NCBI GenBank assembly: GCA_020072845.1
Contig: JAIQGF010000007.1
Coordinates: 124,001-188,000, forward strand
Length of the DNA stretch: 64,000 nucleotides
Reading direction: 5' to 3'
From: Terriglobia bacterium
Lineage (GTDB): Bacteria; Acidobacteriota; Terriglobia; Terriglobales; Acidobacteriaceae
The position numbers and the translations under genes are program-made. Below, one piece after another: positions 32,871-48,210 of the stretch (its first letter is position 1; each line of letters begins with the position of its first letter). The notes below the pieces were generated by a model. That model was not told the origin of the DNA and did not search any database. It was given only the letters and a program-made list of their open reading frames with translations.

Positions 32871-32935
32871 AAGGAAACGACAGCAGTCCGGCCCCGATCC
32901 GCAGGTCGGACGGTTTCGAGTTGAGGAGCGCCATC

Positions 32936-35900
32936 ATGGAAAACAACGTTCATCGCGCGATGGCAATTGTGGGCGTGGGTGCGGTCCTGCCCGACGCCCC
33001 GAACGCGGCAGCTTTCTGGGAAAACGTGAAGAACGGCCGCTACAGCATCGCCGAGGTCCCGCCGGAGAGATGGGACCCGGCACTCTACTACGATGCCGAT
33101 CCCGCCGCGCCCGACAAGACGTATTCCAAGATCGGCGGCTGGGTGAGAGAGCACGTATGGGACCCGATGAAGTGGCACTTGCCGATTCCGCCACGGGTTT
33201 CCGCGGCCATGGACGAGACGCAGCAGTGGGCGATCGAATGCACGCGCGAAGCATTGGAGGATTATGGCTATCCCAAGCGGCCGCTGAACCTGGAGCGCAC
33301 GGCGGTGATCCTGGGCAACGCCATGGGCGGAGAGAAACATTACTTCACGGTCATGCGTGCCCTGTTTCCCGAATTCGCGCGCGAGCTGGCGGAAGGCGCG
33401 AGTTTTGCCGCGCTGCCAGAGCCGGTGCGGAACACGATTCTCGACGAAGTGCACGGCCGCATGAACCATCTGTGTCCGGAAATCACCGAAGACACCATGC
33501 CGGGCGAGTTGTCCAACTGCGTTGCCGGGCGGATCGCAAACCTATTCAATTTTCGAGGTCCCAATTACGTGGTGGACGCTGCCTGTGCTTCGGCCATGGC
33601 GGCGCTGAGCGCGGCGGTTGAGGGACTGGCGGAACACGATTTTGATGTCGCAATCACTGGCGGCATTGACCGCAACATGGGCCCGTCAACCTTCGTGAAG
33701 TTCTGCAAGATCGGCGCGCTGTCGGGGACGGGATCGCGTCCCTATGCCGAGGGCGCGGATGGCTTTGTCATGGGCGAAGGCGCGGTGGTATTTGTGATCA
33801 AGCGCCTGGCCGATGCCGAGCGCGACGGCGACAAAATCTATGCGGTGCTGCGAGGGGTCGGCGGCTCCAGCGACGGCAAGGGAAAAGGCATTACGGCGCC
33901 GAACCCGGTGGGGCAGCGGCTGGCAATGCAGCGGGGATGGGAAAATGCCGGGCTGTCACCCACACCCGGGACGTTGATCGAAGGTCACGGCACGTCCACG
34001 CGCGCGGGTGACTTGGCGGAATTGCAAAGCCTGCTGGACGTGCTCAGCGATCTTCATCTTCCCACGCACTCCGTGGCGCTCGGCTCGGTGAAATCGAATA
34101 TCGGGCACCTGAAGAGCGCGGCGGGGGCGGCCGGTTTGCTGAAAGCCGCCCTTGCGATACACGACAAGGTTTTGCCGCCCAGCGTGCACTACGAGCGTCC
34201 CAACCCCGGCATTGATCTTGCGCACTCGCCGGTTTACGTGAATACCGAGCTCAAGCCGTGGACGATGGCCGCCGATGGTGTGCGCCGCGCCGGCGTGAGC
34301 GCTTTTGGTTTTGGCGGCACCAACTTCCACTGCGTGCTGGAAGAGCACATTCCCCACAAGCTGACCGGCAATGGCAAGCGGTCGGTGGCAGTCAGCAACA
34401 TAGGGCCGGTCACGGCGGAAGGCGGAGCCATGAATACGAGCGGTGTTTCCCAGACTTCCCATGCCGAGTTGTCGGACAAGGCGCCGTTACGCGGAGCGCT
34501 GGTCATCGGCGCTGACTCAGACGCCGCCCTTGCCGACCGTTTGCGGCCGGTGCAGAAGGCTGCGGCAGCGGGCCGCGCGCCGGCTTGGCTTGCTCCTGCG
34601 GAATCGGACCTGCGAGCGCCGGAACGCCTGGCGATTGACTACACCGACGCCGCCGATCTGGCGGAGAAATCGAGCAAGGCACTGCAGGCGCTGGCCGCAA
34701 ATCAGCCGGCGGTCTGGAAAGCGTTGCGCGCGCAAGGAATCTTCCGCGGCCACGGCCCCGCGCCCAAGGTGGCGTTCCTCTATACCGGCCAGGGCTCGCA
34801 GTACGTCAACATGCTGAAGCCGCTGCGCGCCGTTGAGCCCATCGTGGCCGACACGTTCGCCGAGGCGGACCGGATCATGACACCGCTGCTGGGGAAACCG
34901 CTGTCGGAATTCATCTTTGTTGAGTCAACGGACGCCGATGCAGTGGCAAAGGCGGAAGCGGATCTGATGCAGACGGCAATTACGCAGCCGGCCGTGCTGG
35001 CCACCGACCTCGCGCTCACCCGGCTGCTCGCGGCTTACGGCATTCGGCCCGACATGACGATGGGACACAGCTTGGGCGAATACGGCGCACTGGTTGCGGC
35101 CGGCGCGCTTCCGCTGGCCGGCGCTTTGGAGGCGGTCAGCGCGCGCGGGCGCGAGATGACGCGCGTGGCGTTCGGCGACAACGGCAAAATGGCCGCCGTG
35201 TTTGCGCCTATTTCCGAGATCGAACGCATCCTGAAATCGGTGGATGGCTACGTGGTGATCGCGAATATTAACAGCGACCGCCAGGGAGTGATCGGCGGCG
35301 CGAGCAAGGCGGTCGAGCAGGCGATGGAACTGCTTCTCAAGGCCGGCTACGAAGTGACTCCGCTCACCGTCAGCCATGCGTTCCACACTTCGATCGTGGC
35401 TCCGGCGAGCGAGCCGCTGCGGCAGGCGCTGGCGCGGCTTGGCCTGCAATCACCGCAGTTGCCCATCGTCGCCAATGTCAACGGCGAGTTTTATCCGACC
35501 GGTCCGGATGTCGTGCCGCAAATGCTCGACATTCTCGCCCGCCAGGTCGCTGCCCCGGTGCAATTCGTGAAAGGCTTGCGCACGCTGTACGACGCCGGCG
35601 CGCGCGTGTTCGTGGAAACCGGGCCGAAGAAGGCGTTGCAGGGGTTCGCCGAAGATGTGCTCGGCGGGCGCGGTGACGTGGTTTCCCTGTTCACCAATCA
35701 TCCGAAAGTCGGCGACGTGGCGTCATTCAACCAGGCGCTTTGCGGACTTTATGCGGCCGGCTTAGGACACGGTCGCGCCGAGCAGGCGGCGGCGACCCCG
35801 CAGCGTGCGATCGCGCCGGCGGAAAAACGCGCTGAATCGCTGCCTGTGGTCGCGGCTGCGCCGAAAGCTCCCACGGCAACGAGCGCGCCGGCGGCTGATG

Positions 35901-38900
35901 ATCGCTACATCGCCCTCGGGCGCATCTTCGCCGAAGCCGTGGAACGCGGCTTGCAACTTTACCAGGGACAGAAGTCAACCGTGGACGTGCGGCCTATCGC
36001 AATTACCGGGGCCGCGCTGGGACTGCCCGGAACCGAACATATCTTCGATGACGCGAACATCGGCCGCATTTTGCGCGGCGAGCAATTCATCGATGCCATC
36101 CCGGCGCGCTTCCGCCGCGCCATGCTCGACAAGCACATCACGCGCCTGGTGAAGAACGAGAACGGAGGTCCAACGTTCGACACCATCACCGACCTGGCGG
36201 ACGTGATCAAGTTAGCGGGGCGCGGAGGGGTGTTCGACCTGGAAAGCGAGTTTGGTGTTTCCGCGGAGCGGATCGCCGCTCTCGACCGCGTGACCCGGCT
36301 GGCGATCGGGGCCGGTATTGATGCCCTGCGCGATGCCGGCATTCCCCTGGTGATGCGCTACAAGAAAACCAGCAAGGGAACGCAACTGCCGGACCGGTGG
36401 GGGCTGCCCGAGGTGATGCGCGACGACACCGGAGTGATTTTCGCCTCCGCATTTCCCGGCATGGATTCGCTGATCGGAGAGGTCACGCATTGCTGCGCCG
36501 ACCAAGCTCGCCGCGAGCAGTTGGAGCTGCTGGAACGGTTGCGGACACGGGCGGTGGAGGCGAACGGTCATGCCTCCAGTTTGCGGCAGGAAATTGAGCG
36601 GCGCATGGAAGAGCTGCGCGCAGTCATCGAAAAAGAGCCGTATCAATTCGACCGGCGTTTCCTGTTCAGGACATTGTCCATGGGACATTCGCAGTTCGCC
36701 GAATTCATCGGCGCGCGTGGTCCCAACACGCAAATCAATGCCGCGTGCGCCAGCACGACGCAGGCCATCTCTCTGGCGGAGGACTGGATCCGCGCCGGAC
36801 GGTGCCGCCGGGTGATTGTGGTCTCGGCCGACGACGTCACCTCCGACAACATGCTGGAATGGTTTGGGGCCGGGTTCCTGGCAAGCGGAGCCGCGGCGAC
36901 GGATGAGATCGTGGAAGAGGCGGCCATTCCCTTCGACCGCCGCCGGCACGGCATGTTGATCGGCATGGGCGCCGCGGCGCTGGTGGTGGAGAGCGCGGAG
37001 GGCGCGCGCGAGCGGGGCATCCAGCCGATTTGCGAAGTGCTGAGCGCAGTGACGGCAAACAGCGCCTTCCACGGCACCCGGTTGGACGTCCAGCATATCG
37101 CGCAGGTCATGGAGAAGCTGGTGGTCCGAGCCGAATCGCAGAGCGCCATTCAGCGTCATCAGATCGCGGCGAAAACGGTCTTCGTCTCGCATGAGACCTA
37201 CACCCCGGCACGGGGCGGCAGCGCGTCGGCGGAAATCCATGCATTGCGGCGGGTGTTCGGTGACGCCGCGGACCAGATCGTGATCGCCAATACCAAGGGC
37301 TTCACTGGGCATGCGATGGGCACGGGGATCGAGGACGTGGTCGCGATCAAGGCGCTGGAAACCGGGTGCGTGCCGCCGGTGGCCAATTTCAGGGAAATTG
37401 ATCCTGAGTTGGGGCGGTTGAACTTGTCGAAGGGCGGCGCTTATCCGGTGGAGTATGCGTTGCGGCTCGCCGCCGGCTTCGGCTCGCAAATCAGCATGAC
37501 GCTGACGCGCTGGGTGGCGACAGCGGACGGAGTGCACCGTAGTCCCAATGCCCTGGGCTATGCCTATCGCATTGTCGACCCCAATGCATGGAATGCCTGG
37601 CTGACTCGCATCGTGGGACATTCGGCCGCCGACCTGGAAGTGGTTCACCGGACGCTGCGCGTGCGCGATGAGGCGCAAGCTGCACGCGACGCAGAATCCG
37701 CGCAGCAATCCAAGCCGGCGCCGGCACCCGTGATGCAATCAGCGCCGCCGATACCTGCAGAGCAACAGCGGCCCGCGACTCCGCGCACTGCGGTTGCCGC
37801 GCCGGCGAAACCCGTGGCAGCGGCGGCGACCGCAATCGCTGCAACCAAAGTGGAGGTGGTGAAGGTTGCAGCCGCAGCGCCCTCAGTTTCTGCGCCTGCG
37901 AAGGTTGCGGCCGCAGCCCCCCCGCCGTTTGCGCCTCCGCAGCCCGCGGCAGGCGGCGATGCGGTCAAAGAGCGGATCCTCGCCCTGGTAGCGGAGAAAA
38001 CCGGGTATCCGGTTGACATGCTCGACCTGGACCTGGACTTGGAAGCGGACCTGGGCGTTGACACCGTGAAGCAGGCAGAGGTATTTGCCGCCATCCGCGA
38101 AGCGTACGGCATCGTACGCGACGACAAAATCAAGCTGCGGGATTTCCCGACTCTTGCCCATGTGATCCGCTTCGTCTACGAACGGCGTCCGGAGCTTGCA
38201 CCGACTGCGGCAGCGATAAAGATAAAGGAGGAAGTAAAAGCGCCCATTGCAATCGCTGCCCCCACCACAGCCGTGGCCGACGATGCGGTCAAGGAGCGGA
38301 TTCTCGCACTCGTAGTGGAGAAGACCGGGTACCCGAAAGACATGCTGGACCTGGACCTCGATCTGGAAGCGGACCTGGGAGTTGATACAGTCAAGCAGGC
38401 GGAGATGTTCGCGGCGATCCGCGAGATCTACAACATTCCGCGCGATCAGAATCTCAAGCTACGCGATTTCCCCACGTTGAAACACGTCATGCAGTTTGTG
38501 TACGACAAGCGCCCGGACCTTGCGGCCCCACCTGCTCCGACAAGGGCGGCAGACAAGGAACCGGCGGCGATTGCGCTCGCTGCCCCCACGACACCCGCGG
38601 CCGACGACGCGGTTAAGGAGCGGATACTCGCACTCGTCGTGGAAAAGACCGGCTACCCGAAAGACATGCTGGACATGGACCTCGATCTGGAAGCGGACCT
38701 GGGAGTTGACACGGTAAAGCAGGCGGAGATGTTCGCGGCGATCCGCGAGATCTACAACATTCCGCGCGATCAGAATCTCAAGCTACGGGATTTCCCCACG
38801 TTGAAACACGTCATGCAGTTCGTGTACGACAGGCGTCCGGACCTTGCCGCGCCAGCCCCTCCAGTAACGGTGGCAGAGAAGCAACCCGAACCGATCAAGC

Positions 38901-41767
38901 CCACGGTCGAACCAGCGGCCACGGCCGAAGATCCAATTGCGGACGCGGTACTGCAGATCGTCGCCGAGAAGACCGGATATCCCAAAGACATGCTGGACCT
39001 GGACCTCGATCTGGAAGCGGACCTCGGCATTGACACGGTAAAACAGGCGGAAATGTTTGCGGCCATCCGCGAGTTGTACAAAATTCCGCGCGACCCGAAT
39101 CTCAAACTGCGGGACTTCCCCACGCTGGCACAAGTCATTAAGTTCGCGCACGACCGGCAGCCGGCCGCGGCAGCACCAACCGCAACGCCTCCTGCCGCCC
39201 CGGTGGACCAGCATGGGCCGGCGGAGGAAACACCCAAAGCACGCCCGGCGGTCGCCAGTTTCGACGCGGCTAATCTTATCCCGCGCCGCGTGCCGACACC
39301 CGTGGTGCGTCCCACACTCGACATCTGCAAGCCGACCGGCGTGGCGCTCAACCACGGCGAGCGCGTGATCGTCATGCCGGACAAAGGCGGCGTGGCGAGC
39401 GCGCTGGCACAGTTGCTCCAGGGGATGGGCGTGGAAGTACTCCAGCTCGACCGGGAGCTGTCTGCGGACGCGCTCAGCGAATATCTCAACCGGTGTCTGG
39501 CTGCGGGCCCGGTGCACGGAGTCTTTTGGCTTCCTGCCTTGGACGACGAGGGCAACCATCGCGAGATGGATCTCAAATCCTGGCGCGAGGCGGTGCGTAT
39601 CCGTCTGAAGTCTTTTTACGTCGCCATGCGCAGGCTCTACGACCAGATTGCGGCGCCGGGAACATTCCTGGTTTCCGCCACTCGCCTGGGAGGGCAACAC
39701 GGCTACGATCCGGCGGGAGCAGCCGCACCGCTGGGTGGCGCCGTGGCGGGCTTCAGCAAAGCTTACAAGCGCGAGCGTATTGACGCTCTGGTGAAGGCAG
39801 TCGATTTCGAATCACGCCGCGGCGCGTTCCAGATTGCTGAGACCCTCATTGAAGAAGCGCTGCGCGATCCCGGCGCGGTCGAGATCGGCTACAAGGAAGG
39901 ACTACGCTGGGCGGTTGGGCTGCGGGAAGAGCCGGCGGCCGACGGCCAGCCTGGCCTGACCCTGGACAAAGACACTGTCTTCCTGATCACCGGCGCCGCG
40001 GGCAGCATCGTCTCGGCCATCACCACGGATCTGGCGGCGGCTTCCGGCGGCACGTTTTATCTGCTCGACCTGGTGCCGGAGCCCGATAGCAATGATCCCG
40101 ACCTCAAACTTTTTGTCAGCGACAAAGACGCGCTGAAACGCGCCCTGTTCGCCCGCATCCAGCAACGCGGGGAGCGGGCTACTCCGGCGCTGGTGGAAAA
40201 GGAACTGGCGGCGCTGGAACGGGCGCAGGCGGCGGCGAGCGCGATTGCGGCCGTGCAGGCGGCCGGCGGCACCGCCCGGTACTTCAGCGTGAATCTGACC
40301 GATCCGGATGCGGTGGCCAAGGTCGTCGATCAAGTACGTGCGCGCAGCGGCCGGATTGACGTGATGCTGCACGCCGCCGGGATCGAGCGCAGCCACTTGC
40401 TTCCGGACAAGACACCAAGTGAGTTCGATCTGGTGTTTGACGTCAAGACCATCGGCTGGTTCAACTTGCTGCGCGCGATCGGCGACATGCCGCTGGGCGC
40501 GACCGTGGCGTTCAGTTCGGTGGCGGGACGCTTCGGCAACGCAGGACAAACGGACTACAGCTCGGCCAACGATCTGCTTTGCAAGCTGACATCGAACTTG
40601 CGAACCACCCGGCCGCGGACGCGCGGCATCGTGCTTGACTGGAGCGCGTGGGGCGGCATTGGCATGGCGACACGCGGTTCCATCCCCAAGATGATGGAAT
40701 TGGCCGGTATTGACATGATTCCGCCGGAAGCGGGCATTCCCATGATTCGCCGCGAACTGACGGCGGGAGCAACCCGCGGCGAAATCGTAGTCGGGCAACG
40801 ACTCGGCATTCTGACTAACGAGTGGGACGTCGCCGGCGGACTGGAAACGACGGCGGCTTCCCGTACGAATCGCCTGCAAGGACCGATGATTGGCAAGGTC
40901 ACGGGCGCCGGGCTTCACAGCGCGGGGCTGCTCATTGAGGCGACGCTCGACCCCAAGATCCAACCGTTCCTGTACGACCATCAGATCGAAGGCACGCCCG
41001 TGCTGCCTGGGGTGATGGGCGTCGAGGCATTCGTCGAAGCGGCCTTGTGGATGCTTCCGGGCTGGCACGCCGAGGCGATCGAGGATGTGAATTTCCTGGC
41101 GCCTCATAAGTTTTATCGCAGCGAGCCACGCACCCTGACAACGGAAGCAACGTTCTATGCGCAGGGTGATTCCATCCTCGCCGATTGCCGTTTGATCGGC
41201 CGCCGCTCACTGCCCAACCAGAAGGACCCGCAAGTCACGACACATTTCACGGGCCGGGTGCGGCTGACGCGCAAGCCGCCGCAGGCGGTGACGGTGGTTG
41301 CGCCTGGCGCGCCGCCGGGAAAGACCATCGAAGCCGCCGATATCTACCGCATTTATTTCCACGGACCGGCCTACCAGGTGATCGGGCGGGCGTGGCGGGA
41401 TGGGAAACGGATGATCGGACAGTTGGCGAAAGGCCTGCCCTGCAATCACCAGCCGTCCGAATGGCCGGCCGTGAGCGCGCCGCGGCTGCTCGAGCTTTGC
41501 TTCCAAACTGCCGGCCTGCTGGAGATGACAGGGGAAGGCCGGTTTGGCCTGCCGCAGCACGTGGACCGGGTCTGCGTTTGCAGCGCACCCGGCTTGGCGG
41601 ATGCGCAGCTCTATGCCGTGGTTACGCCCTCCGCCGGGGGAAGGTTCGACGCGGAAGTTGTGGACGAGAGAGGGACGCGGTACGTTCAGCTCAGCGGCTA
41701 CCACACCGTCGCGCTGGCCAACAAGATCGAGGGCGAAGCGCTGAAAGCGTTGCAAGCAGTGGCGTGA
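32936..41767 (+). CDS. Giant PfaA/HglE-like megasynthase, KS-AT-KS-ACP4-KR-DH
   Basis: A 2943-residue multidomain synthase; ATG at 32936 with GAGGAG. Domains: KS1 (about 8-460; Cys217 in DAACASA, His in EGHGTST and SNIGHLK), AT (about 608-925; Ser712 in GHSLG), KS2 (about 1015-1540; Cys1271 in NAACAST, later SHETYTP and TGHAMGTG, with a charged helical insert near 1190-1240), four ACPs (about 1670-2085), KR (about 2345-2640; TGAAGSI, Tyr2541 in TDYSSAND) and a double-hotdog DH (about 2670-2943; His2682 in HQIEGTPVLPG, then ELCFQ). No enoyl reductase is seen. It is likely to be an iterative secondary-lipid or polyketide synthase. All ACPs show DTVKQ where Ser carries phosphopantetheine in normal ACPs. 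Confidence 0.9.
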   Translation: MENNVHRAMAIVGVGAVLPDAPNAAAFWENVKNGRYSIAEVPPERWDPALYYDADPAAPDKTYSKIGGWVREHVWDPMKWHLPIPPRVSAAMDETQQWAIECTREALEDYGYPKRPLNLERTAVILGNAMGGEKHYFTVMRALFPEFARELAEGASFAALPEPVRNTILDEVHGRMNHLCPEITEDTMPGELSNCVAGRIANLFNFRGPNYVVDAACASAMAALSAAVEGLAEHDFDVAITGGIDRNMGPSTFVKFCKIGALSGTGSRPYAEGADGFVMGEGAVVFVIKRLADAERDGDKIYAVLRGVGGSSDGKGKGITAPNPVGQRLAMQRGWENAGLSPTPGTLIEGHGTSTRAGDLAELQSLLDVLSDLHLPTHSVALGSVKSNIGHLKSAAGAAGLLKAALAIHDKVLPPSVHYERPNPGIDLAHSPVYVNTELKPWTMAADGVRRAGVSAFGFGGTNFHCVLEEHIPHKLTGNGKRSVAVSNIGPVTAEGGAMNTSGVSQTSHAELSDKAPLRGALVIGADSDAALADRLRPVQKAAAAGRAPAWLAPAESDLRAPERLAIDYTDAADLAEKSSKALQALAANQPAVWKALRAQGIFRGHGPAPKVAFLYTGQGSQYVNMLKPLRAVEPIVADTFAEADRIMTPLLGKPLSEFIFVESTDADAVAKAEADLMQTAITQPAVLATDLALTRLLAAYGIRPDMTMGHSLGEYGALVAAGALPLAGALEAVSARGREMTRVAFGDNGKMAAVFAPISEIERILKSVDGYVVIANINSDRQGVIGGASKAVEQAMELLLKAGYEVTPLTVSHAFHTSIVAPASEPLRQALARLGLQSPQLPIVANVNGEFYPTGPDVVPQMLDILARQVAAPVQFVKGLRTLYDAGARVFVETGPKKALQGFAEDVLGGRGDVVSLFTNHPKVGDVASFNQALCGLYAAGLGHGRAEQAAATPQRAIAPAEKRAESLPVVAAAPKAPTATSAPAADDRYIALGRIFAEAVERGLQLYQGQKSTVDVRPIAITGAALGLPGTEHIFDDANIGRILRGEQFIDAIPARFRRAMLDKHITRLVKNENGGPTFDTITDLADVIKLAGRGGVFDLESEFGVSAERIAALDRVTRLAIGAGIDALRDAGIPLVMRYKKTSKGTQLPDRWGLPEVMRDDTGVIFASAFPGMDSLIGEVTHCCADQARREQLELLERLRTRAVEANGHASSLRQEIERRMEELRAVIEKEPYQFDRRFLFRTLSMGHSQFAEFIGARGPNTQINAACASTTQAISLAEDWIRAGRCRRVIVVSADDVTSDNMLEWFGAGFLASGAAATDEIVEEAAIPFDRRRHGMLIGMGAAALVVESAEGARERGIQPICEVLSAVTANSAFHGTRLDVQHIAQVMEKLVVRAESQSAIQRHQIAAKTVFVSHETYTPARGGSASAEIHALRRVFGDAADQIVIANTKGFTGHAMGTGIEDVVAIKALETGCVPPVANFREIDPELGRLNLSKGGAYPVEYALRLAAGFGSQISMTLTRWVATADGVHRSPNALGYAYRIVDPNAWNAWLTRIVGHSAADLEVVHRTLRVRDEAQAARDAESAQQSKPAPAPVMQSAPPIPAEQQRPATPRTAVAAPAKPVAAAATAIAATKVEVVKVAAAAPSVSAPAKVAAAAPPPFAPPQPAAGGDAVKERILALVAEKTGYPVDMLDLDLDLEADLGVDTVKQAEVFAAIREAYGIVRDDKIKLRDFPTLAHVIRFVYERRPELAPTAAAIKIKEEVKAPIAIAAPTTAVADDAVKERILALVVEKTGYPKDMLDLDLDLEADLGVDTVKQAEMFAAIREIYNIPRDQNLKLRDFPTLKHVMQFVYDKRPDLAAPPAPTRAADKEPAAIALAAPTTPAADDAVKERILALVVEKTGYPKDMLDMDLDLEADLGVDTVKQAEMFAAIREIYNIPRDQNLKLRDFPTLKHVMQFVYDRRPDLAAPAPPVTVAEKQPEPIKPTVEPAATAEDPIADAVLQIVAEKTGYPKDMLDLDLDLEADLGIDTVKQAEMFAAIRELYKIPRDPNLKLRDFPTLAQVIKFAHDRQPAAAAPTATPPAAPVDQHGPAEETPKARPAVASFDAANLIPRRVPTPVVRPTLDICKPTGVALNHGERVIVMPDKGGVASALAQLLQGMGVEVLQLDRELSADALSEYLNRCLAAGPVHGVFWLPALDDEGNHREMDLKSWREAVRIRLKSFYVAMRRLYDQIAAPGTFLVSATRLGGQHGYDPAGAAAPLGGAVAGFSKAYKRERIDALVKAVDFESRRGAFQIAETLIEEALRDPGAVEIGYKEGLRWAVGLREEPAADGQPGLTLDKDTVFLITGAAGSIVSAITTDLAAASGGTFYLLDLVPEPDSNDPDLKLFVSDKDALKRALFARIQQRGERATPALVEKELAALERAQAAASAIAAVQAAGGTARYFSVNLTDPDAVAKVVDQVRARSGRIDVMLHAAGIERSHLLPDKTPSEFDLVFDVKTIGWFNLLRAIGDMPLGATVAFSSVAGRFGNAGQTDYSSANDLLCKLTSNLRTTRPRTRGIVLDWSAWGGIGMATRGSIPKMMELAGIDMIPPEAGIPMIRRELTAGATRGEIVVGQRLGILTNEWDVAGGLETTAASRTNRLQGPMIGKVTGAGLHSAGLLIEATLDPKIQPFLYDHQIEGTPVLPGVMGVEAFVEAALWMLPGWHAEAIEDVNFLAPHKFYRSEPRTLTTEATFYAQGDSILADCRLIGRRSLPNQKDPQVTTHFTGRVRLTRKPPQAVTVVAPGAPPGKTIEAADIYRIYFHGPAYQVIGRAWRDGKRMIGQLAKGLPCNHQPSEWPAVSAPRLLELCFQTAGLLEMTGEGRFGLPQHVDRVCVCSAPGLADAQLYAVVTPSAGGRFDAEVVDERGTRYVQLSGYHTVALANKIEGEALKALQAVA
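37960..39165 (+). repeat. Four tandem 324-bp acyl-carrier-protein repeats
   Basis: The equivalent Thr codons of the four ACPs start at 38063, 38387, 38711 and 39035, an exact 324-bp (108-residue) period including the Ala/Pro linkers. Each repeat has EKTGYPxDMLDLDLDLEADL then GxDTVKQAE and KLRDFPTL. Repeats 2 and 3 are almost identical at DNA level over roughly 190 bases, which points to recent duplication or gene conversion; repeats 1 and 4 have diverged. Confidence 0.9.
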
Positions 41768-41796
41768 ACATCGGCCTCAGCAAGGCGCGCCCCATC

Positions 41797-42555
41797 ATGA
41801 CCATGGACGTTTATTGGCTGGAACAGACGGAGTCGGATGTTCCGCCGGGCAATGAGTGGCTCAGCGGAAACGAAATCATCCTGCTCGAAGGACTTCATGT
41901 CGCCAAGCGCCGAGCCGACTGGCGGCTGGGACGCTGGACGGCAAAAAGCGCGGTGGCCGCCTACCTGAAGCTGCGCGTTCCTCCGGCTTGCATGGCGGAA
42001 ATTGAAATAAGTGCGCGGCCATCCGGAGCGCCGCAGGTGAGGTTGGCGACCGGGCCCGCGCCGGCTGAAATTTCCCTAAGCCACCGCGGCGGCGTCGCCA
42101 TGTGCGCGGTCGCGGGGCCGGACGCGGCGATCGGATGCGACCTGGAGATCGTGGAAACCCACAGCACGGCGTTCATCCGGGACTACTTTACCGATAAAGA
42201 GCGGGTGGAAATTGCGCGGGCGCCTGCGAGCCACCAGCGATCGCTTGTGGCCGCCCTGTGGAGCGCGAAGGAGAGCGCGCTCAAGGCACTGCAAGAGGGA
42301 CTTCGGCTCGATACCCGGTCGGTGTCGGTCCGCCTGAGTGGGTGGGCCGACGAAGTCCATCGCTGGTATTCGCTGCAGGTTGATTGCGAACACGGTGAAG
42401 TGTTCCATGGCTGGTGGCAAAGGGCAGGCACTGTGGTGCGCACCATGGTTGCCAGACCCCAGCCGGCAATGCCGATGCTCCTGCCGATATTGAGCTTCGC
42501 AAGCCGGCGAATGGAAGCCCAGGCCGACGCTGCCCCACCACTGCGACCTATTTAG
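41797..42555 (+). CDS. 4'-phosphopantetheinyl transferase (Sfp type)
   Basis: About 252 residues with the Sfp signature: ISLSHRGGVAMCAV, IGCDLEIVE (Mg-binding Asp/Glu), FTDKERVE and LWSAKESALKAL. It would transfer phosphopantetheine from CoA to the carrier domains of the megasynthase encoded just upstream. The ATG at 41797 gives a natural N-terminus (MTMDVYWLEQ); a GTG at 41764 overlapping the megasynthase stop as GTGA is an alternative coupled start. Its stop overlaps the converging glycosyltransferase gene by eight bases. The C-terminal 60 residues extend past the usual core. Confidence 0.9.
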   Translation: MTMDVYWLEQTESDVPPGNEWLSGNEIILLEGLHVAKRRADWRLGRWTAKSAVAAYLKLRVPPACMAEIEISARPSGAPQVRLATGPAPAEISLSHRGGVAMCAVAGPDAAIGCDLEIVETHSTAFIRDYFTDKERVEIARAPASHQRSLVAALWSAKESALKALQEGLRLDTRSVSVRLSGWADEVHRWYSLQVDCEHGEVFHGWWQRAGTVVRTMVARPQPAMPMLLPILSFASRRMEAQADAAPPLRPI

Positions 42556-43465
42556 CTCTGTCCTTCACCCAATCGGTGAAAACACCTTCATTGACGCTGA
42601 AGTAGTGGCACCCCAAGGCGGAGGTTTGCTCTCGGCTGGTTGAGAGGAATTCCTGGCCTTGCAAGAAATCGTGCCACGCGAAAATTCCGCACGAGACTTC
42701 CGGCAGGCGCCCTAGCATCATCCAGAACGCCACTTCATCAGCGATCCAGGCGTTGGAGGAAGGAAACGGCAGCGGAGGGTGCGACGGTTCCGCTGAACCG
42801 ACGGCGCTGTTGGGATCGCACTCCGGCGTCCGGTAAGGCAACGCGCCATCGTGGTGCAAGCGCAACCACATCATCAAGCGCGATGCGTAGTCCAGCATGA
42901 AACCGAGCATCGGCGCCAGTTTGCGGTGCAGACCACGATTCAACAGCAGAGCGCCGGCATTCAAGGTTGGAACTTCGCGCAAGGCTTCCGATTTCAGCAA
43001 GGCCGCCAGCGCGGCAGGATCGAGATACGCGGCATCGCCATGAGCGCTATACGGGGAAAAAGGCTCTTCGCGCCCGTAGCATTCGCATTCCGCATAGCGT
43101 TCAAACAGCTTGGTGACGTCGTCGAAGAAGAAAGTGTCGCAATCAACCAACAGCAACTGCGCCACGTCCACATCGGCCAGTTTGGCGAGCGACAAATACT
43201 TGCAGAGAACGCCATAGCTACTCAGCGCCTCCGCATGCGGCGACAGACTGCCAAGCGAGGCGACGTAGGCGCCGACCGGCTTCACACAGATGTGGTTCGC
43301 TTCCAGGAGAGCCGCAGCGGCCGACGGCAAATCGCCATACACGAACACCCACACCGGGATGTTGGTGTTGTATTGCCGCAGGCTGGCAGTGCTGCGCAGT
43401 AGCTGGTCGAGATGCGGTCCTTCACCGCAATCGGTCACCGAATAACAGACGAGCCGGCTGGCCAT
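42548..43465 (-). CDS. GT-A-fold glycosyltransferase-like protein
   Basis: A 305-residue protein with a nucleotide-sugar transferase look. The start RLVCYSVTDCGEGPHLDQLLRS is followed by a Rossmann-like region and a DxD motif at 108-110 (LLLVDCDTFFF), as in GT8-like enzymes that bind UDP-sugar through a metal. Further features are LREVPTLNAGALLLNRG and the acidic IADEVAFWMMLG. No signal peptide, so cytoplasmic. The family assignment is by fold motifs only. It is transcribed divergently from the Pro-rich peptide/oxygenase genes with 193 bases between, which makes a joint role in peptide modification possible but unproven. Confidence 0.65.
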   Translation of the reverse strand: MASRLVCYSVTDCGEGPHLDQLLRSTASLRQYNTNIPVWVFVYGDLPSAAAALLEANHICVKPVGAYVASLGSLSPHAEALSSYGVLCKYLSLAKLADVDVAQLLLVDCDTFFFDDVTKLFERYAECECYGREEPFSPYSAHGDAAYLDPAALAALLKSEALREVPTLNAGALLLNRGLHRKLAPMLGFMLDYASRLMMWLRLHHDGALPYRTPECDPNSAVGSAEPSHPPLPFPSSNAWIADEVAFWMMLGRLPEVSCGIFAWHDFLQGQEFLSTSREQTSALGCHYFSVNEGVFTDWVKDRAK

Positions 43466-43487
43466 TTTCTCGGGTGGCTGCCCTTTC

Positions 43488-43516
43488 TTGACAATCGAGG
43501 CGGCACATTCTATCGT
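43488..43516 (+). promoter_or_regulatory. Sigma70-like promoter for the Pro-rich peptide operon
   Basis: TTGACA at 43488-43493 and TATCGT at 43511-43516 are separated by exactly 17 bases. Transcription would start near 43523, leaving a leader of about 135 bases before the peptide ATG at 43659. This is the only good plus-strand promoter candidate in the divergent region. Confidence 0.6.
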
Positions 43517-43658
43517 TTGCGACCAACTCTTACGAAGCCAGCTTTCATTTCACTGCATTCGGACCCATTGCAACTCAGTGCGCGACCACTCGGAATCCAG
43601 GTGAGCGGCGGCGTGCGCGATTTACGCAGGATCAACTGGTTGGCTAAGGAGAAGCCGT

Positions 43659-43865
43659 ATGACAGACATCTCAACTTCCGACGCAGGACGGAGGAGTATG
43701 CAGTGCAGCCCACCGGGTGGACCGAAACCAGGTCATGTTCCCGGTGCGGCGCCAACCGCCCCAAGACCAGGCCCACCTCCCGGTGCGGCGCCAACCGCCC
43801 CAAAACCAGGACCGAAACCCGGTCCTGTTCCCGGTGCGGCGCCTACTAGCAGGCCGAAGACATAG
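43659..43865 (+). CDS. 68-residue Pro/Gly-rich repeat peptide, candidate oxygenase substrate
   Basis: A small gene with an ideal Shine-Dalgarno (AAGGAG, 7 bases before ATG). A 16-residue polar N-terminus (MTDISTSDAGRRSMQC) is followed by a core containing all 20 of the 20 prolines, with eight Pro-Gly pairs and three PGAAPT repeats separated by APRPGPP, APKPGPKPGPV and SRPKT. The DNA repeats are obvious (CCCGGTGCGGCGCC three times). It ends 15 bases before a prolyl-hydroxylase-like oxygenase gene. There is no signal peptide. Role as precursor or substrate for the neighbouring oxygenases is inferred from position and from the Pro-Gly motif, the usual target of prolyl 4-hydroxylases. No known family was recognised. 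Confidence 0.65.
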   Translation: MTDISTSDAGRRSMQCSPPGGPKPGHVPGAAPTAPRPGPPPGAAPTAPKPGPKPGPVPGAAPTSRPKT

Positions 43866-43880
43866 CAGGATCGCAAACCG

Positions 43881-44480
43881 ATGAGGTCTGCGGCAACGAA
43901 ACCGGAGTTCGTTGTGCTGGAGGAATTCCTTTTTCCTGACGAACTGTCGGCACTGCTGCAATACGCGATTAGCCGGGAAGCGGATTTTCAAGCCGGCACA
44001 GTTGTGACCGCCGAGAACGAGCGCGCCCTCATGCTCGATCACCGGCGGTCGCGGCTGTTGTATGAACTGGGTCCGTTTTTCTCACTGGTGACCGGTCGCG
44101 TCCGCCATTTCCTGGATTACGCGCTGGAGAGATTGGCGCGCAAGCCCTTCCCTGTCCTGGAGGTTGATGCCGGTCTCAGCGCCAGCAATGACGGAGATTT
44201 TTTCGGCCCTCATCGCGACGTGGATGCCGCCAATTCCACCCGGGAGATCTCCTACGTCTACTACTTTCATCGCGAGCCGAAGGCGTACTCCGGCGGAGAA
44301 CTCCGCATCTACGAAGAGGATAGTTGGAACCACGACGTCATCGTGCCGGGGCAGAATTTCGTCGTTTTCTTCTCTGCCGCAGCCATCCATGAGGTTTCCG
44401 TCGTGCATTGCCCGTCGCGTGACTTCGCCGACAGCCGGTTTGCCTTGAACGGATGGATCCACTGTGACCGCAGCGCCTAG
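43881..44480 (+). CDS. 2-oxoglutarate/Fe(II)-dependent oxygenase, prolyl-4-hydroxylase-like
   Basis: A 199-residue double-stranded beta-helix enzyme of the SM-20/Tpa1-like 2OG oxygenase group. The iron facial triad is His111 and Asp113 (GPHRDVD) with His170 (AAIHEV); Arg180, ten residues later, is placed to bind 2-oxoglutarate. The motif SGGELRIYEED is typical of prolyl hydroxylases of this group. No export signal. It begins 15 bases after the Pro-rich peptide gene and its end overlaps the next oxygenase gene by 17 bases, so the three are probably one operon. Proline in the peptide is the obvious candidate target. Confidence 0.85.
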   Translation: MRSAATKPEFVVLEEFLFPDELSALLQYAISREADFQAGTVVTAENERALMLDHRRSRLLYELGPFFSLVTGRVRHFLDYALERLARKPFPVLEVDAGLSASNDGDFFGPHRDVDAANSTREISYVYYFHREPKAYSGGELRIYEEDSWNHDVIVPGQNFVVFFSAAAIHEVSVVHCPSRDFADSRFALNGWIHCDRSA

Positions 44481-45465
44481 CCCGCAACTTGCCGATCATC
44501 GGGCGGACGCCGCCGCCGCTGAATGCGCAGGTGGCGCGGTGTTTCGCTGCGTACTTGACGAGCAGCCCGGATACCTTTCGCCATCCTCGGCCGGACGCCC
44601 TCGCGTTGCTTCCAAGCGGCTCATCATCAACCCGGATTGCCGTTTTTCCTGGACGAGCGGAACACCGCGCGAGGTAGCGGAAGCTGCTGCGTGGCTGGCC
44701 GCCGGCGCGCATGACCCAATCGTCTGGGTTCCAACTGCAACCGGGTGGCAAGCATTCTGGGCAGGAGACGCGTACCGAAAACTGCTGAACCATTGCTCTC
44801 TCGGCGGGCCCGTTCCGGACGGCGCGTCGGACCGCACCGTTGACGTCTTGCGTCAGGCCGGCATTCTAGTAGAGAGCAGCCGCGTGGACGCTGCCGGCAA
44901 GCGGTGGCACGCCGCGGCTGCGACATCGGCGCGCCGGTTTCGCCAACGCCGCTACACAACCGTGTCCGGCCTGATTCACGCCTTCCAGATCGACGCCCTC
45001 CGCAAGTACTACCGCCGCCTGGTTCGCACCGGCGGCATGTGTCTCGGCGATGCTCAGGCGTCCTGCCGTTACGCCTGCCACAATGAGGCTGTCTCGCGCT
45101 TTTTCCACCATCAGCTGACTGACGCCATCAGCGAAATTGCCGGCGAGAAGCTGAAGCCGTCGTACACCTACGTGGTTTCTTACCAGGGCGGCGCGGAATT
45201 GGAACCGCACACCGACCGCGAGCAGTGCGAATTCACGCTGAGCGTTCTGGTGGATTATCCCCCGGAGCGAGAGCGGGAGTCGCCTTGGCCCTTGTGCATC
45301 CAGCCAGGCAAGCGCACGGTGAGAGTGATCCAAAATGTCGGGGACGCGGTTTTGTTCTGCGGACGTCAGTTGCCGCACTTCCGCCCCAAACTTGTCGAAG
45401 GATTTACCTCCACCACGCTGTTGCTGCATTACGTGCGGGAGGATTTCGCCGGACCGCTGGATTGA
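44464..45465 (+). CDS. Second 2OG/Fe(II)-type oxygenase with an extra N-terminal domain
   Basis: A 333-residue protein starting at a GTG inside the previous gene. The C-terminal half (about 170-333) has the 2OG-oxygenase pattern: TYVVSYQGGAELEPHTDREQCEFTLSVLVDY with His249 and Asp251, then His305 (QLPHFRPKL) and STTLLLHYV. The N-terminal ~160 residues are not a known oxygenase part; the segment DRTVDVLRQAGILVE looks like the end of a winged-helix or PqqD-like recognition domain, a speculative reading. It differs strongly from the first oxygenase and may perform a second oxidation or act on a different residue. Cys residues are frequent in the middle. Confidence 0.75.
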   Translation: MTAAPSPQLADHRADAAAAECAGGAVFRCVLDEQPGYLSPSSAGRPRVASKRLIINPDCRFSWTSGTPREVAEAAAWLAAGAHDPIVWVPTATGWQAFWAGDAYRKLLNHCSLGGPVPDGASDRTVDVLRQAGILVESSRVDAAGKRWHAAAATSARRFRQRRYTTVSGLIHAFQIDALRKYYRRLVRTGGMCLGDAQASCRYACHNEAVSRFFHHQLTDAISEIAGEKLKPSYTYVVSYQGGAELEPHTDREQCEFTLSVLVDYPPERERESPWPLCIQPGKRTVRVIQNVGDAVLFCGRQLPHFRPKLVEGFTSTTLLLHYVREDFAGPLD

Positions 45466-45499: not shown

Positions 45500-48040
45500 T
45501 CATTTCAGGTTCCGCACCACGTACAACGTCGACAATACCCGGTAATAGTTGTAGGCGTACGCTTTGCCGTCGGGCGTGATGACGGCGCCGCCGATATTGA
45601 CCAGGCCGGCCGGATCGTTCGGCATCATCTTGCGGACGAGCTGCCGCTTTCCCGTCGCAATGTCCACGAGGTAGACATTATTGGGCAGAGAAGCGGGCTC
45701 GGAAACGTAAAGCGCCCCAGGATCGGCGCTCCAGCCAATCGGGTCGAAACCGGTGGGCAGGTTGGGAATGCGCCGTGACGGTGATCCGTCCACCGCATAA
45801 ACCGTGATCAGATGCTCGTTGTCGGGAGCGGCCACCAACCTGCCATCCGGCGAGACGACCAGTGCGGGAACTCCTTCAGGCGTGATGGCGCGGGGTTGGC
45901 TTCCGTGCTGGTCGATGATGTAAGCGCGAGCCGCGTGACCCTTCTCCGCCGCATTGAGCAGGAGATGCTCGCCGTCTGGAAAAATCCGCGCGCTGCCGAA
46001 GTTTTCCAACCCGGTGACGCTGACCGTGATCGGTTGCCCCGCCCCGGTCGGAAGCAATGTCACCTGGGTGGGCGTCGTCGCCACCACCCACTTGCCATCA
46101 CGCGACAGACCGCCGGGGCTGCCCTCGCCCAGCCGCAGCGGCGGGCTTGCGTCGAATTTCCGCAGCCCCGCCATGTAATGCTCGCCGGCGGGCGCGCCTG
46201 CTTCTTCGAACAGCAGCAACTTGCCGTCGGGTGAAATGTCGCGCGCAATCGTCCAGTCGAACCAGGACAGGTCGCGTTCCGGCCCGCTGCCATCGGTCCC
46301 TTGCATGAGCGATCGCTCGTCTTCCGATGTCAGCAGCACGCGGCCGTCGCTGGCGATGTCCTGCAGCGTCATCCCGGTGGGTACGGCCAGCACCTCCCGC
46401 TCGTGACCCGACATGCTGATGGCATACAAGGACCGGCTGAAGCCGCGTCGGGTCGCGCTTACCCACACCTCTCCGCTTGGCGACCAGGCCAGCCCGTCCG
46501 CCGCCTCCCAGCCGCTGGAGAGGACCGTCCGTTTGCCGGACGTGTCAATCACGCAAACCGTCCCGCGATCGTCGGACCAGATCGCGTGATCGAGAAAAGC
46601 AATGCGATCTCCCGTGGGTGAGAACCGGATATGACTGATCCACCCGGGCGTTTCGTACAGTACCTTGCCGATCGGGTACTCCAGCCGGCTGCGGCCCGCC
46701 GGCCCGCCCTGGTGACGCACCACGGCCAATTCTCCATGTGGATCCCAGTCCGCCCAGCGGACATTTTCGGCGACATCGCGAGGCGCGCCACCCGCCATCG
46801 GAGCGCGCGCCAGCGTCCCGAACACAACGACCAGATGCGCCGATAACCTGCCGTGCCTCAGCAGCGCGAGTTCGCCGGTGCGCGATATGCCCAGGACGGT
46901 GGCATCGCCCAACCCGAGCGGCCTTGACGACGGGAATTCCGGGCTGGTCGAGTAGACCTCGACCGGAGAGCCCGACCAGGACGCCGAGTAAATAATGTTG
47001 TGTTCGTCGGGAGCGAAGCGCGCCGCCGCGATGGTTCCCCGCTCGTAGGTCAGGCGATCGAACTGCGGCTGGACTATCGTCGCTCGCCGCACGGCGAAAA
47101 CGGCTGCTGCCAGCAGCACCAGCGCGCCGGCAATTTCCAGCACCCCGCGCCGCCCTACGCGCCGGGCCGGCTGCGGCGTTACCCGCACCCGCACAGTGGC
47201 GGAAGTTTCTCCCACCGTTCCCTGCAAAGCAAACACCAGGTCGCGTGCCGATTGGAAACGGTTCGCCGCGTCTTTTTCCATGCAGTGTTGCAGCACGCGC
47301 CGCACCGCGGCAGGAATCTTTTCCGCTGCCGGTTCTTCCAGCGGATCGAGGTTGAGGATGGCGCGCACGGTCTCGGTTCGGCTGGGACTCGAGAACGGCG
47401 GCGCCCCCACCAGCATCTCGTAGAGCACTCCTCCCAGGCTGAAGATGTCGCTGCGATGATCCACCGCCGCCCCGCACACCTGTTCCGGCGACATGTAGGT
47501 GAGCGTGCCCATGATCACGCCCGCGGTGGTCAAGGTTGGCTGATCTCCGCCTGGGTCCGGCGCCGACAGCTTGGCAATCCCGAAATCGAGAATCTTGACT
47601 TGCCCGTCTTTCGTCAGGAAGACGTTGTCGGGCTTCAGGTCGCGGTGGATGATTCCTTTTTCGTGCGCCGTGGCCAGCCCGGATGCAATTTGACCCGCAA
47701 TCTCAATCGCGCCACGCGTCGGCAACGGACCCGTCCGGAGCCGGTCCCGGAGGGTCATCCCCTCGAGCAACTCGGAAACAATGAACGGCGTGCCTTCGCA
47801 GGTGCCGACATCGTAGACCGCAAGAATGTTGGGGTGGTTGGTGCTCGCCGTGATCCGTGCTTCCTGCTGGAAGCGGCGCAGTCGGTCTGGGTCGAGACCG
47901 ATTCTTTCCGAGAGAATCTTGATGGCGACTTCGCGGCCCAGTTCCAGGTCGCGGGCGCGGTACACCTCGCCCATGCCGCCGGCGCCGATCGCCGACACAA
48001 TCTCATACCGGCCGAGTTTGGAGCCGGGTAGGAGCGGCAT
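45500..48040 (-). CDS. Membrane Ser/Thr protein kinase with C-terminal beta-propeller
   Basis: An 846-residue eukaryotic-like kinase. Gly loop IGAGGMGEVYRA, invariant Lys in VAIKIL, catalytic loop HRDLKPDNVFL, DFG in ILDFGIAKL and an APE-like MSPEQVCG are all intact. After the kinase domain (about 10-280) one transmembrane helix lies near 315-335. The remaining ~510 residues form a TolB/PD40-type beta-propeller (repeats such as ISPDGKLLLFEEAG, VSPDGRLVAAPDNE) outside the membrane, probably a sensor. ATG at 48040 preferred over a TTG 15 codons upstream. This architecture is common in Acidobacteria. Targets are unknown. Confidence 0.92.
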   Translation of the reverse strand: MPLLPGSKLGRYEIVSAIGAGGMGEVYRARDLELGREVAIKILSERIGLDPDRLRRFQQEARITASTNHPNILAVYDVGTCEGTPFIVSELLEGMTLRDRLRTGPLPTRGAIEIAGQIASGLATAHEKGIIHRDLKPDNVFLTKDGQVKILDFGIAKLSAPDPGGDQPTLTTAGVIMGTLTYMSPEQVCGAAVDHRSDIFSLGGVLYEMLVGAPPFSSPSRTETVRAILNLDPLEEPAAEKIPAAVRRVLQHCMEKDAANRFQSARDLVFALQGTVGETSATVRVRVTPQPARRVGRRGVLEIAGALVLLAAAVFAVRRATIVQPQFDRLTYERGTIAAARFAPDEHNIIYSASWSGSPVEVYSTSPEFPSSRPLGLGDATVLGISRTGELALLRHGRLSAHLVVVFGTLARAPMAGGAPRDVAENVRWADWDPHGELAVVRHQGGPAGRSRLEYPIGKVLYETPGWISHIRFSPTGDRIAFLDHAIWSDDRGTVCVIDTSGKRTVLSSGWEAADGLAWSPSGEVWVSATRRGFSRSLYAISMSGHEREVLAVPTGMTLQDIASDGRVLLTSEDERSLMQGTDGSGPERDLSWFDWTIARDISPDGKLLLFEEAGAPAGEHYMAGLRKFDASPPLRLGEGSPGGLSRDGKWVVATTPTQVTLLPTGAGQPITVSVTGLENFGSARIFPDGEHLLLNAAEKGHAARAYIIDQHGSQPRAITPEGVPALVVSPDGRLVAAPDNEHLITVYAVDGSPSRRIPNLPTGFDPIGWSADPGALYVSEPASLPNNVYLVDIATGKRQLVRKMMPNDPAGLVNIGGAVITPDGKAYAYNYYRVLSTLYVVRNLK

Positions 48041-48210
48041 AACTGGTTGCAGTGCGGGATTATACGTCAGCCCCTGCACCGGCAAAGAACAGGGTTCCGG
48101 GCTGGGCTGCGCCGTTTACCCTCGAATGCCAGGTGCGACCAAGGCTGCAAAGCACATTCAGGAGAGAGCGCAGATCTTGGAAACGAGCCCGCGTCTCCCG
48201 CGCACGCCGT

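Follow-up and report, generated by a model that had tools for sequence, protein, structure and literature searches.

Proline-rich repeats beside a prolyl-4-hydroxylase-like oxygenase and a second 2OG oxygenase in Acidobacteriota: a candidate bacterial hydroxyproline system

The stretch of DNA analysed here (the window) comprises 64,000 nucleotides of Terriglobia bacterium GCA_020072845.1 (contig JAIQGF010000007.1, positions 124,001-188,000, forward strand). An ORF read from the sequence at 43659..43865 (+) encodes a Pro/Gly-rich peptide of 68 aa, the proposed substrate of the system discussed below. It is followed on the same strand by the genes of a P4H-like 2OG-Fe(II) oxygenase (P4H; 43881..44480, 199 aa) and of a second 2OG oxygenase, OX2 (44464..45465, 333 aa). 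The gap between the peptide and P4H ORFs is 15 bp, and the P4H and OX2 ORFs overlap by 17 bp. A probable GT-A-like glycosyltransferase (GT) is encoded divergently (42548..43465, - strand), and a Ser/Thr kinase with a PD40-like C-terminus convergently (45500..48085, - strand). The genes and the placement described in an earlier sequence-only reading of this DNA were confirmed; position 43466, given there as the start, is the base adjoining the GT start, and the peptide itself begins at 43659.

The make-up of the peptide was recounted with the same result as before: 20 Pro among 68 residues, eight Pro-Gly pairs and three PGAAPT units. This composition is not ordinary, since only two of the 501 open stretches in the six frames of the window (at least 68 codons) reach at least 18 Pro per 68 residues, the peptide being one of them. 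Between copies 1 and 2 of the 39-nt unit of its gene there are four codon differences, two of them synonymous and the others Arg/Lys and Pro/Lys. A Shine-Dalgarno-like AAGGAG lies at 43646..43651 (+), 7 nt 5' of the ATG, in agreement with the earlier description. The sigma-70-like promoter with 17-bp spacing that had also been proposed can be located (TTGACA-17-TATCGT, 43488..43516, +), but shuffled sequences already lead one to expect 0.5 such sites against the one found, so it counts as weak evidence.

No Pfam or NCBIfam family matched the peptide at E 0.1. Gly does not occupy each third residue, and on this repeat spacing a collagen label was dropped; a Pro-rich repeat of the kind found in hydroxyproline-rich glycoproteins is present (20 of 68 residues). 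By gene order the peptide resembles a RiPP precursor, its ORF adjoining genes of modifying enzymes, with its expression predicted. A conserved leader recognised by an enzyme (through an RRE or otherwise) was not found, the N-terminus of the peptide having no homologue among the compared loci. Indeed, tblastn of the peptide, its first 16 residues and repeats included, against the fetched loci gave no match beyond loci derived from the window. The expectation that the first 16 residues would be conserved therefore gained no support, and the window repeats are like those of the relatives described below in composition and place only.

The first oxygenase proved to be P4H-like, as had been suggested: it matches PF13640 with E 1.1e-16 and 62 bits, against a curated cut-off of 27. 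Four residues, H294, D296, H362 and R378 (in the numbering of the relative L069), are invariant in the 25 rows of alignment A4, the window included; we take them to be the HxD...H metal triad and the Arg that follows it. Judged by its sequence, the window enzyme is a member of the P4H-like 2OG-Fe(II) oxygenases, for which prolyl hydroxylation is predicted.

OX2 matched no Pfam or NCBIfam family at E 0.1, and H249, D251 and H305 are invariant in 30 rows of its alignment. The best Foldseek matches of its model (pLDDT 86.3, pTM 0.85) were Pseudomonas putida P4H, SnoN and PHD2, with a top E of 7.3e-10 for 4j25. Foldseek and the alignment together assign to OX2 the double-stranded beta-helix and HxD...H of the 2OG oxygenase fold; the C-terminal half is taken as the matched part because the HxD...H columns sit there. 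As models of both enzymes match prolyl hydroxylases, calling the two oxygenases unrelated was too strong. By eye the N-terminus of OX2 looked PqqD/RRE-like; three tests found nothing and no such domain is claimed.

OX2 served as the probe for relatives. Matches were obtained in 15 of 150 family genomes and 7 of 396 phylum genomes, as well as at 21 loci on named acidobacterial contigs, and a larger profile matched in 49 of 398 family genomes; in three other genomes of the genus of the window neither P4H nor OX2 was found at E 0.001. The tally started from 86 rows, OX2 rows below 150 bits (e.g. a partial copy of G051) being omitted. Removal of near-copies, i.e. rows 99% alike across the 150 C-terminal residues of OX2, left 44, among which close relatives remain, and 39 of these have P4H within 2.5 kb of OX2. 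The five entries without P4H are L081 (a cut fragment from the L079 place), L113, L039 and L103 (at contig ends) and L065 (no P4H in the stretch examined).

A locus was scored as fused when at least 12 Pro in 40 residues occurred within the open frame before P4H. In 34 of the 39 P4H+OX2 loci the repeats lie inside the P4H polypeptide, 33 by this criterion and L091, whose frame is broken by an N, judged by eye. In three loci, those of the window, G066 and G841:C38, the Pro-rich ORFs are separate from P4H. The remaining two are L090, which is cut, and G043, which has no adjacent Pro-rich gene; three open frames of G043 reach exactly 12 Pro in 40, and none of them adjoins P4H on its strand. Pro-rich sequence thus accompanies P4H+OX2 in 37 of 39 loci, or in 36 of 38 when the window is omitted, its repeat having been the reason for choosing it. 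The predicted association of both oxygenases with Pro-rich sequence was borne out, but in a form not foreseen, the small separate gene being the exception and a repeat fused to P4H the usual arrangement. Homologous loci lacking a small Pro-rich gene, named beforehand as evidence against the proposal, do formally exist, with the repeat present in another form.

As a control, 50 family genomes were scanned for PF13640, giving 33 matches, 30 of them with loci (7 OX2-linked and 23 not). None of the 23 oxygenases without OX2 nearby had a Pro-rich stretch in frame. Such a stretch was in frame or just upstream in five of the seven OX2-linked genes, a group that is not independent because it includes the window and already known loci; the two lacking it were L126 (G043) and L145 (G027, with a distant OX2). 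When any upstream frame was counted, one of the 23 (L123) had 14 Pro in 40; the ORF concerned, 159 aa long and hydrophobic at its C-terminus, lies 384 bp before the oxygenase, and after its sequence had been read out it was not counted as a relative. The OX2 relatives G378, G482 and G500 had no P4H match in the fetched stretches. Together with G043 they indicate that OX2 can occur without the P4H/Pro-rich partner set, which speaks against a strict system.

Each fused protein starts with an N-terminal domain some 80 residues long, after which come repeats (e.g. GPQPPS, GPGPK or EPDPPG) and then P4H. Their middle stretch, compared in 21 of them, contains 23-39% Pro and in no case Cys, and the repeats vary in type and number; L029 has a frame break between the N-domain and the repeats. 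The dN/dS of the middle stretch was 0.10-0.44 (10 of 11 pairs gave a value), a soft figure owing to the repeats, and that of the flanks 0.06-0.23 for the N-domain and 0.06-0.18 for P4H. A profile of the N-domain picked out 8 of 399 class genomes, where the matches lie within open frames 385-458 codons long, and had no match in the genome of the window. In the model of L069, four helices at the N-terminus are of moderate confidence, the repeat, with pLDDT 34-49, is predicted to be disordered, and the P4H domain is confident. Foldseek matched this domain to Dictyostelium PHD, PHD2 and P. putida P4H and, at rank 30, to an algal P4H with (Ser-Pro)5.

The main rival to a substrate role of the repeat is that it forms a stiff spacer between the N-domain and P4H, that the oxygenases modify another protein, e.g. 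a translation factor, and that the window peptide represents either a relic or a by-product. The position of the repeat between two domains, its predicted disorder and the rapid change of its sequence agree with a spacer, as does the crystallisation with EF-Tu of P. putida P4H, a top structural match. On the other hand, the absence of an in-frame Pro-rich stretch from PF13640 genes without OX2 (0/23) argues against it, and in the window, G066 and G841 the Pro-rich sequence is on separate proteins, where it could not sensibly serve as a spacer. We regard this explanation as possible, yet on the whole unlikely.

Glycosyltransferases accompany the two other unfused clusters. The genes of the G066 cluster share one strand. 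They encode an O-FucT-like protein (its 26.7 bits fall short of the cut-off of 31.5), a GT10 (36 bits, which passes the cut-off), two Pro-rich proteins, a protein that by eye looks GT2-like, two very large proteins, P4H and OX2. One of its Pro-rich proteins has a leader-like N-terminus, and the other long Ser-Pro/Thr-Pro/Ala-Pro repeats. G841:C38 (the place of L026) encodes a homologue of the window GT, two long Pro-rich proteins, a GT2-like protein (by eye), a GT4-containing protein and likewise two very large proteins, P4H and OX2. A C-terminus of the Cys-plus-TAITAIA type is common to all four Pro-rich proteins; among 12 genomes tried it occurred in G066 and G908 alone, and it was not found in the genome of the window. 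G841 and G908 agree in contig places and were counted as one genome, which also has a fused locus.

The very large proteins precede the unfused P4H in both clusters (L042:10292-14461, -, and L026:2721-7337, +, with preceding ORFs of about 1.05-1.2 thousand residues). They had no Pfam or NCBIfam match, and one of them carries PVKPIVPVKPI repeats. At G841:C38:59690-61778 (L080), three tandem paralogous secreted-looking proteins share a motif of the ECCSCFLSPDG type.

The window GT itself matched no Pfam or NCBIfam family at E 0.1 and gave no notable PDB match. The divergent GT-A-like enzyme proposed earlier is present as an ORF, and its label is based on a D-C-D motif and on the relative in the G841 cluster (31% over 299 residues, E 8e-41), which in its genome of 5.0 Mb is some 11.5 kb away from OX2. 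Used alone as query, the window GT found itself in 1 of 150 family genomes, and a GT profile matched 2 of 396, the two genomes used to build it; the link of this GT to the oxygenase pair therefore recurs once, in one other cluster of one other genome. None of the fetched loci of the fused class contained this GT. A GT downstream of OX2 in L026 was also compared with that of the window and bears no real similarity to it.

In the P4H+OX2 tree, the window groups with L026 and L042 against the 21 fused rows with a support of 94/92, which is below the starred level, and its branch is long; with L043 as outgroup, the support for the window position is 44. The tree thus places the window on the side of the unfused clusters. 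The convergent kinase ties it to the fused class instead, as this conserved neighbour is found near OX2 in all 33 loci scored as fused.

These ties bear on the possibility that the window copy is a decaying fused gene, which has lost its N-domain and in which a stop has split the repeats from P4H, leaving a functionless peptide. The peptide and P4H share one reading frame, with a single TAG and five codons between them, and the lack of the N-domain from the genome, the kinase in common with fused loci and the long branch of the window row would all fit such decay. Yet a separate Shine-Dalgarno precedes the peptide, neither oxygenase frame is interrupted and both keep their conserved columns, the tree (with the reservation on its support given above) separates the window from the fused rows, and the GT ties it to an unfused cluster. 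Decay of this kind seems to us improbable.

At 32921-42555, the window contains a 2948-residue synthase-like ORF (by eye) and then a phosphopantetheinyl transferase (PF01648). It could be argued that the oxygenases tailor the product of this large synthase (32921-41767) and not a peptide, as it lies less than 4 kb from them and the phosphopantetheinyl transferase and the GT adjoin. No synthase was, however, noticed by eye upstream of the fused P4H in relatives; the gene there, judged by eye, is presumably purQ in 8 of the 20 loci with listed upstream sequence. The link of the oxygenases to the synthase was dropped on this neighbourhood, and we consider it very improbable.

We propose that the locus belongs to a bacterial hydroxyproline system that acts on Pro-rich repeats, with optional glycosylation, and that it is a small form in which the repeats have a gene of their own; we estimate the probability of this reading at roughly 0.55. 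Its observed basis comprises the gene order and frames, the repeats and their recurrence, the fold class, the conserved columns and the GT association in one other cluster. The argument for the mechanism is the recurrence, at the sequence level, in three arrangements.

The substrate, its hydroxylation, the order of steps, the glycosylation and the destination of the product are inferred as follows. The P4H-like oxygenase would hydroxylate prolines of the Pro-rich repeats. In most relatives these are tethered between the N-terminal helical domain and the catalytic domain, and the fused enzyme would therefore act on its own chain or on that of a dimer partner, while in the window the 68-residue peptide would be modified in trans. 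OX2 may then carry out a second oxidation of the same chain. In the window, G841 and G066, the GTs would probably glycosylate the repeats, on hydroxyproline or on Ser/Thr, so that a glycopeptide or a surface glycoprotein results.

Several known systems resemble parts of this scheme. Borosins, as described in excerpts of PMC8429565, are modifying enzymes whose substrate stretch is part of the same polypeptide, and split borosins, in which the precursor is separate, are also known; according to an excerpt of PMC7878506, the enzyme is a methyltransferase with the core at its C-terminus. The relatives described here share the tethered substrate stretch and the split form. They differ in having a 2OG oxygenase, N-terminal repeats, a partner oxygenase and a product that is putative. 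Enzyme and repeat lie in one polypeptide in 34 relatives and on separate ORFs in the window.

The excerpted text of PMC8968730 reports that the P4H of Bacillus anthracis hydroxylates Pro-rich synthetic peptides and that BclA is glycosylated. A bacterial P4H, Pro-rich peptides and a glycosylated protein are thus combined there as well, but BclA is collagen-like, whereas here Gly is not at each third residue and P4H is mostly fused to the repeat in relatives. P. putida P4H (4iw3, 4j25) is, by the models, a close structural match of both oxygenases; it was solved with EF-Tu, to which no result here points. The hydroxyproline-rich glycoproteins of plants and algae offer a further parallel, with Ser-Pro/Ala-Pro/Thr-Pro repeats beside P4H and GTs, and the fold of the P4H domain matches that of the algal P4H mentioned above. 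They differ from the present case in its bacterial gene clusters, cis-fused form and OX2, and here the modification is a prediction.

Judging from the excerpts of PMC8968730 and PMC8429565, P4Hs acting on Pro-rich peptides and tethered-core enzymes are each known, separately. Among the titles and abstract openings covered by a literature search, none dealt with a P4H fused to a Pro-rich substrate or with this gene set. A broader proposal, which we advance tentatively and hold slightly short of an even chance, is that of a class of bacterial hydroxyproline-rich (glyco)peptides, made by a prolyl hydroxylase to which the substrate repeat is in most members attached, together with a partner oxygenase and, in the unfused branch that includes the window, dedicated GTs. 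Such a class would parallel, in prokaryotes, the extensins and arabinogalactan proteins and would add a tethered-core case to that of the borosins. Our results suggest a counterpart of plant hydroxyproline-rich proteins in bacteria.

If this is true, bacteria produce hydroxyproline-rich, possibly sugar-decorated repeats by dedicated enzymes, and an acidobacterial 2OG oxygenase family so far without a substrate hypothesis would gain one. The loci would also provide compact encoded enzyme-substrate pairs for hydroxyproline materials, and the natural series of fused, split and long proteins could inform on how a hydroxylase chooses among tethered prolines.

Three further loci deserve mention. At L043:8395-11900 (-), a sulfotransferase (PF13469) forms one protein with OX2, while P4H has an additional N-terminal part, and no Pro-rich gene is adjacent. 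L046:8916-9767 (-) encodes a distant OX2-like oxygenase whose C-terminus is PqqD-like at 17.1 bits, below the cut-off. At L064:2694-6470, small proteins featuring a PqqD domain, a TAT-like segment and a Cys-rich tail flank a distant homologue of OX2, and an HprK-like kinase adjoins them.
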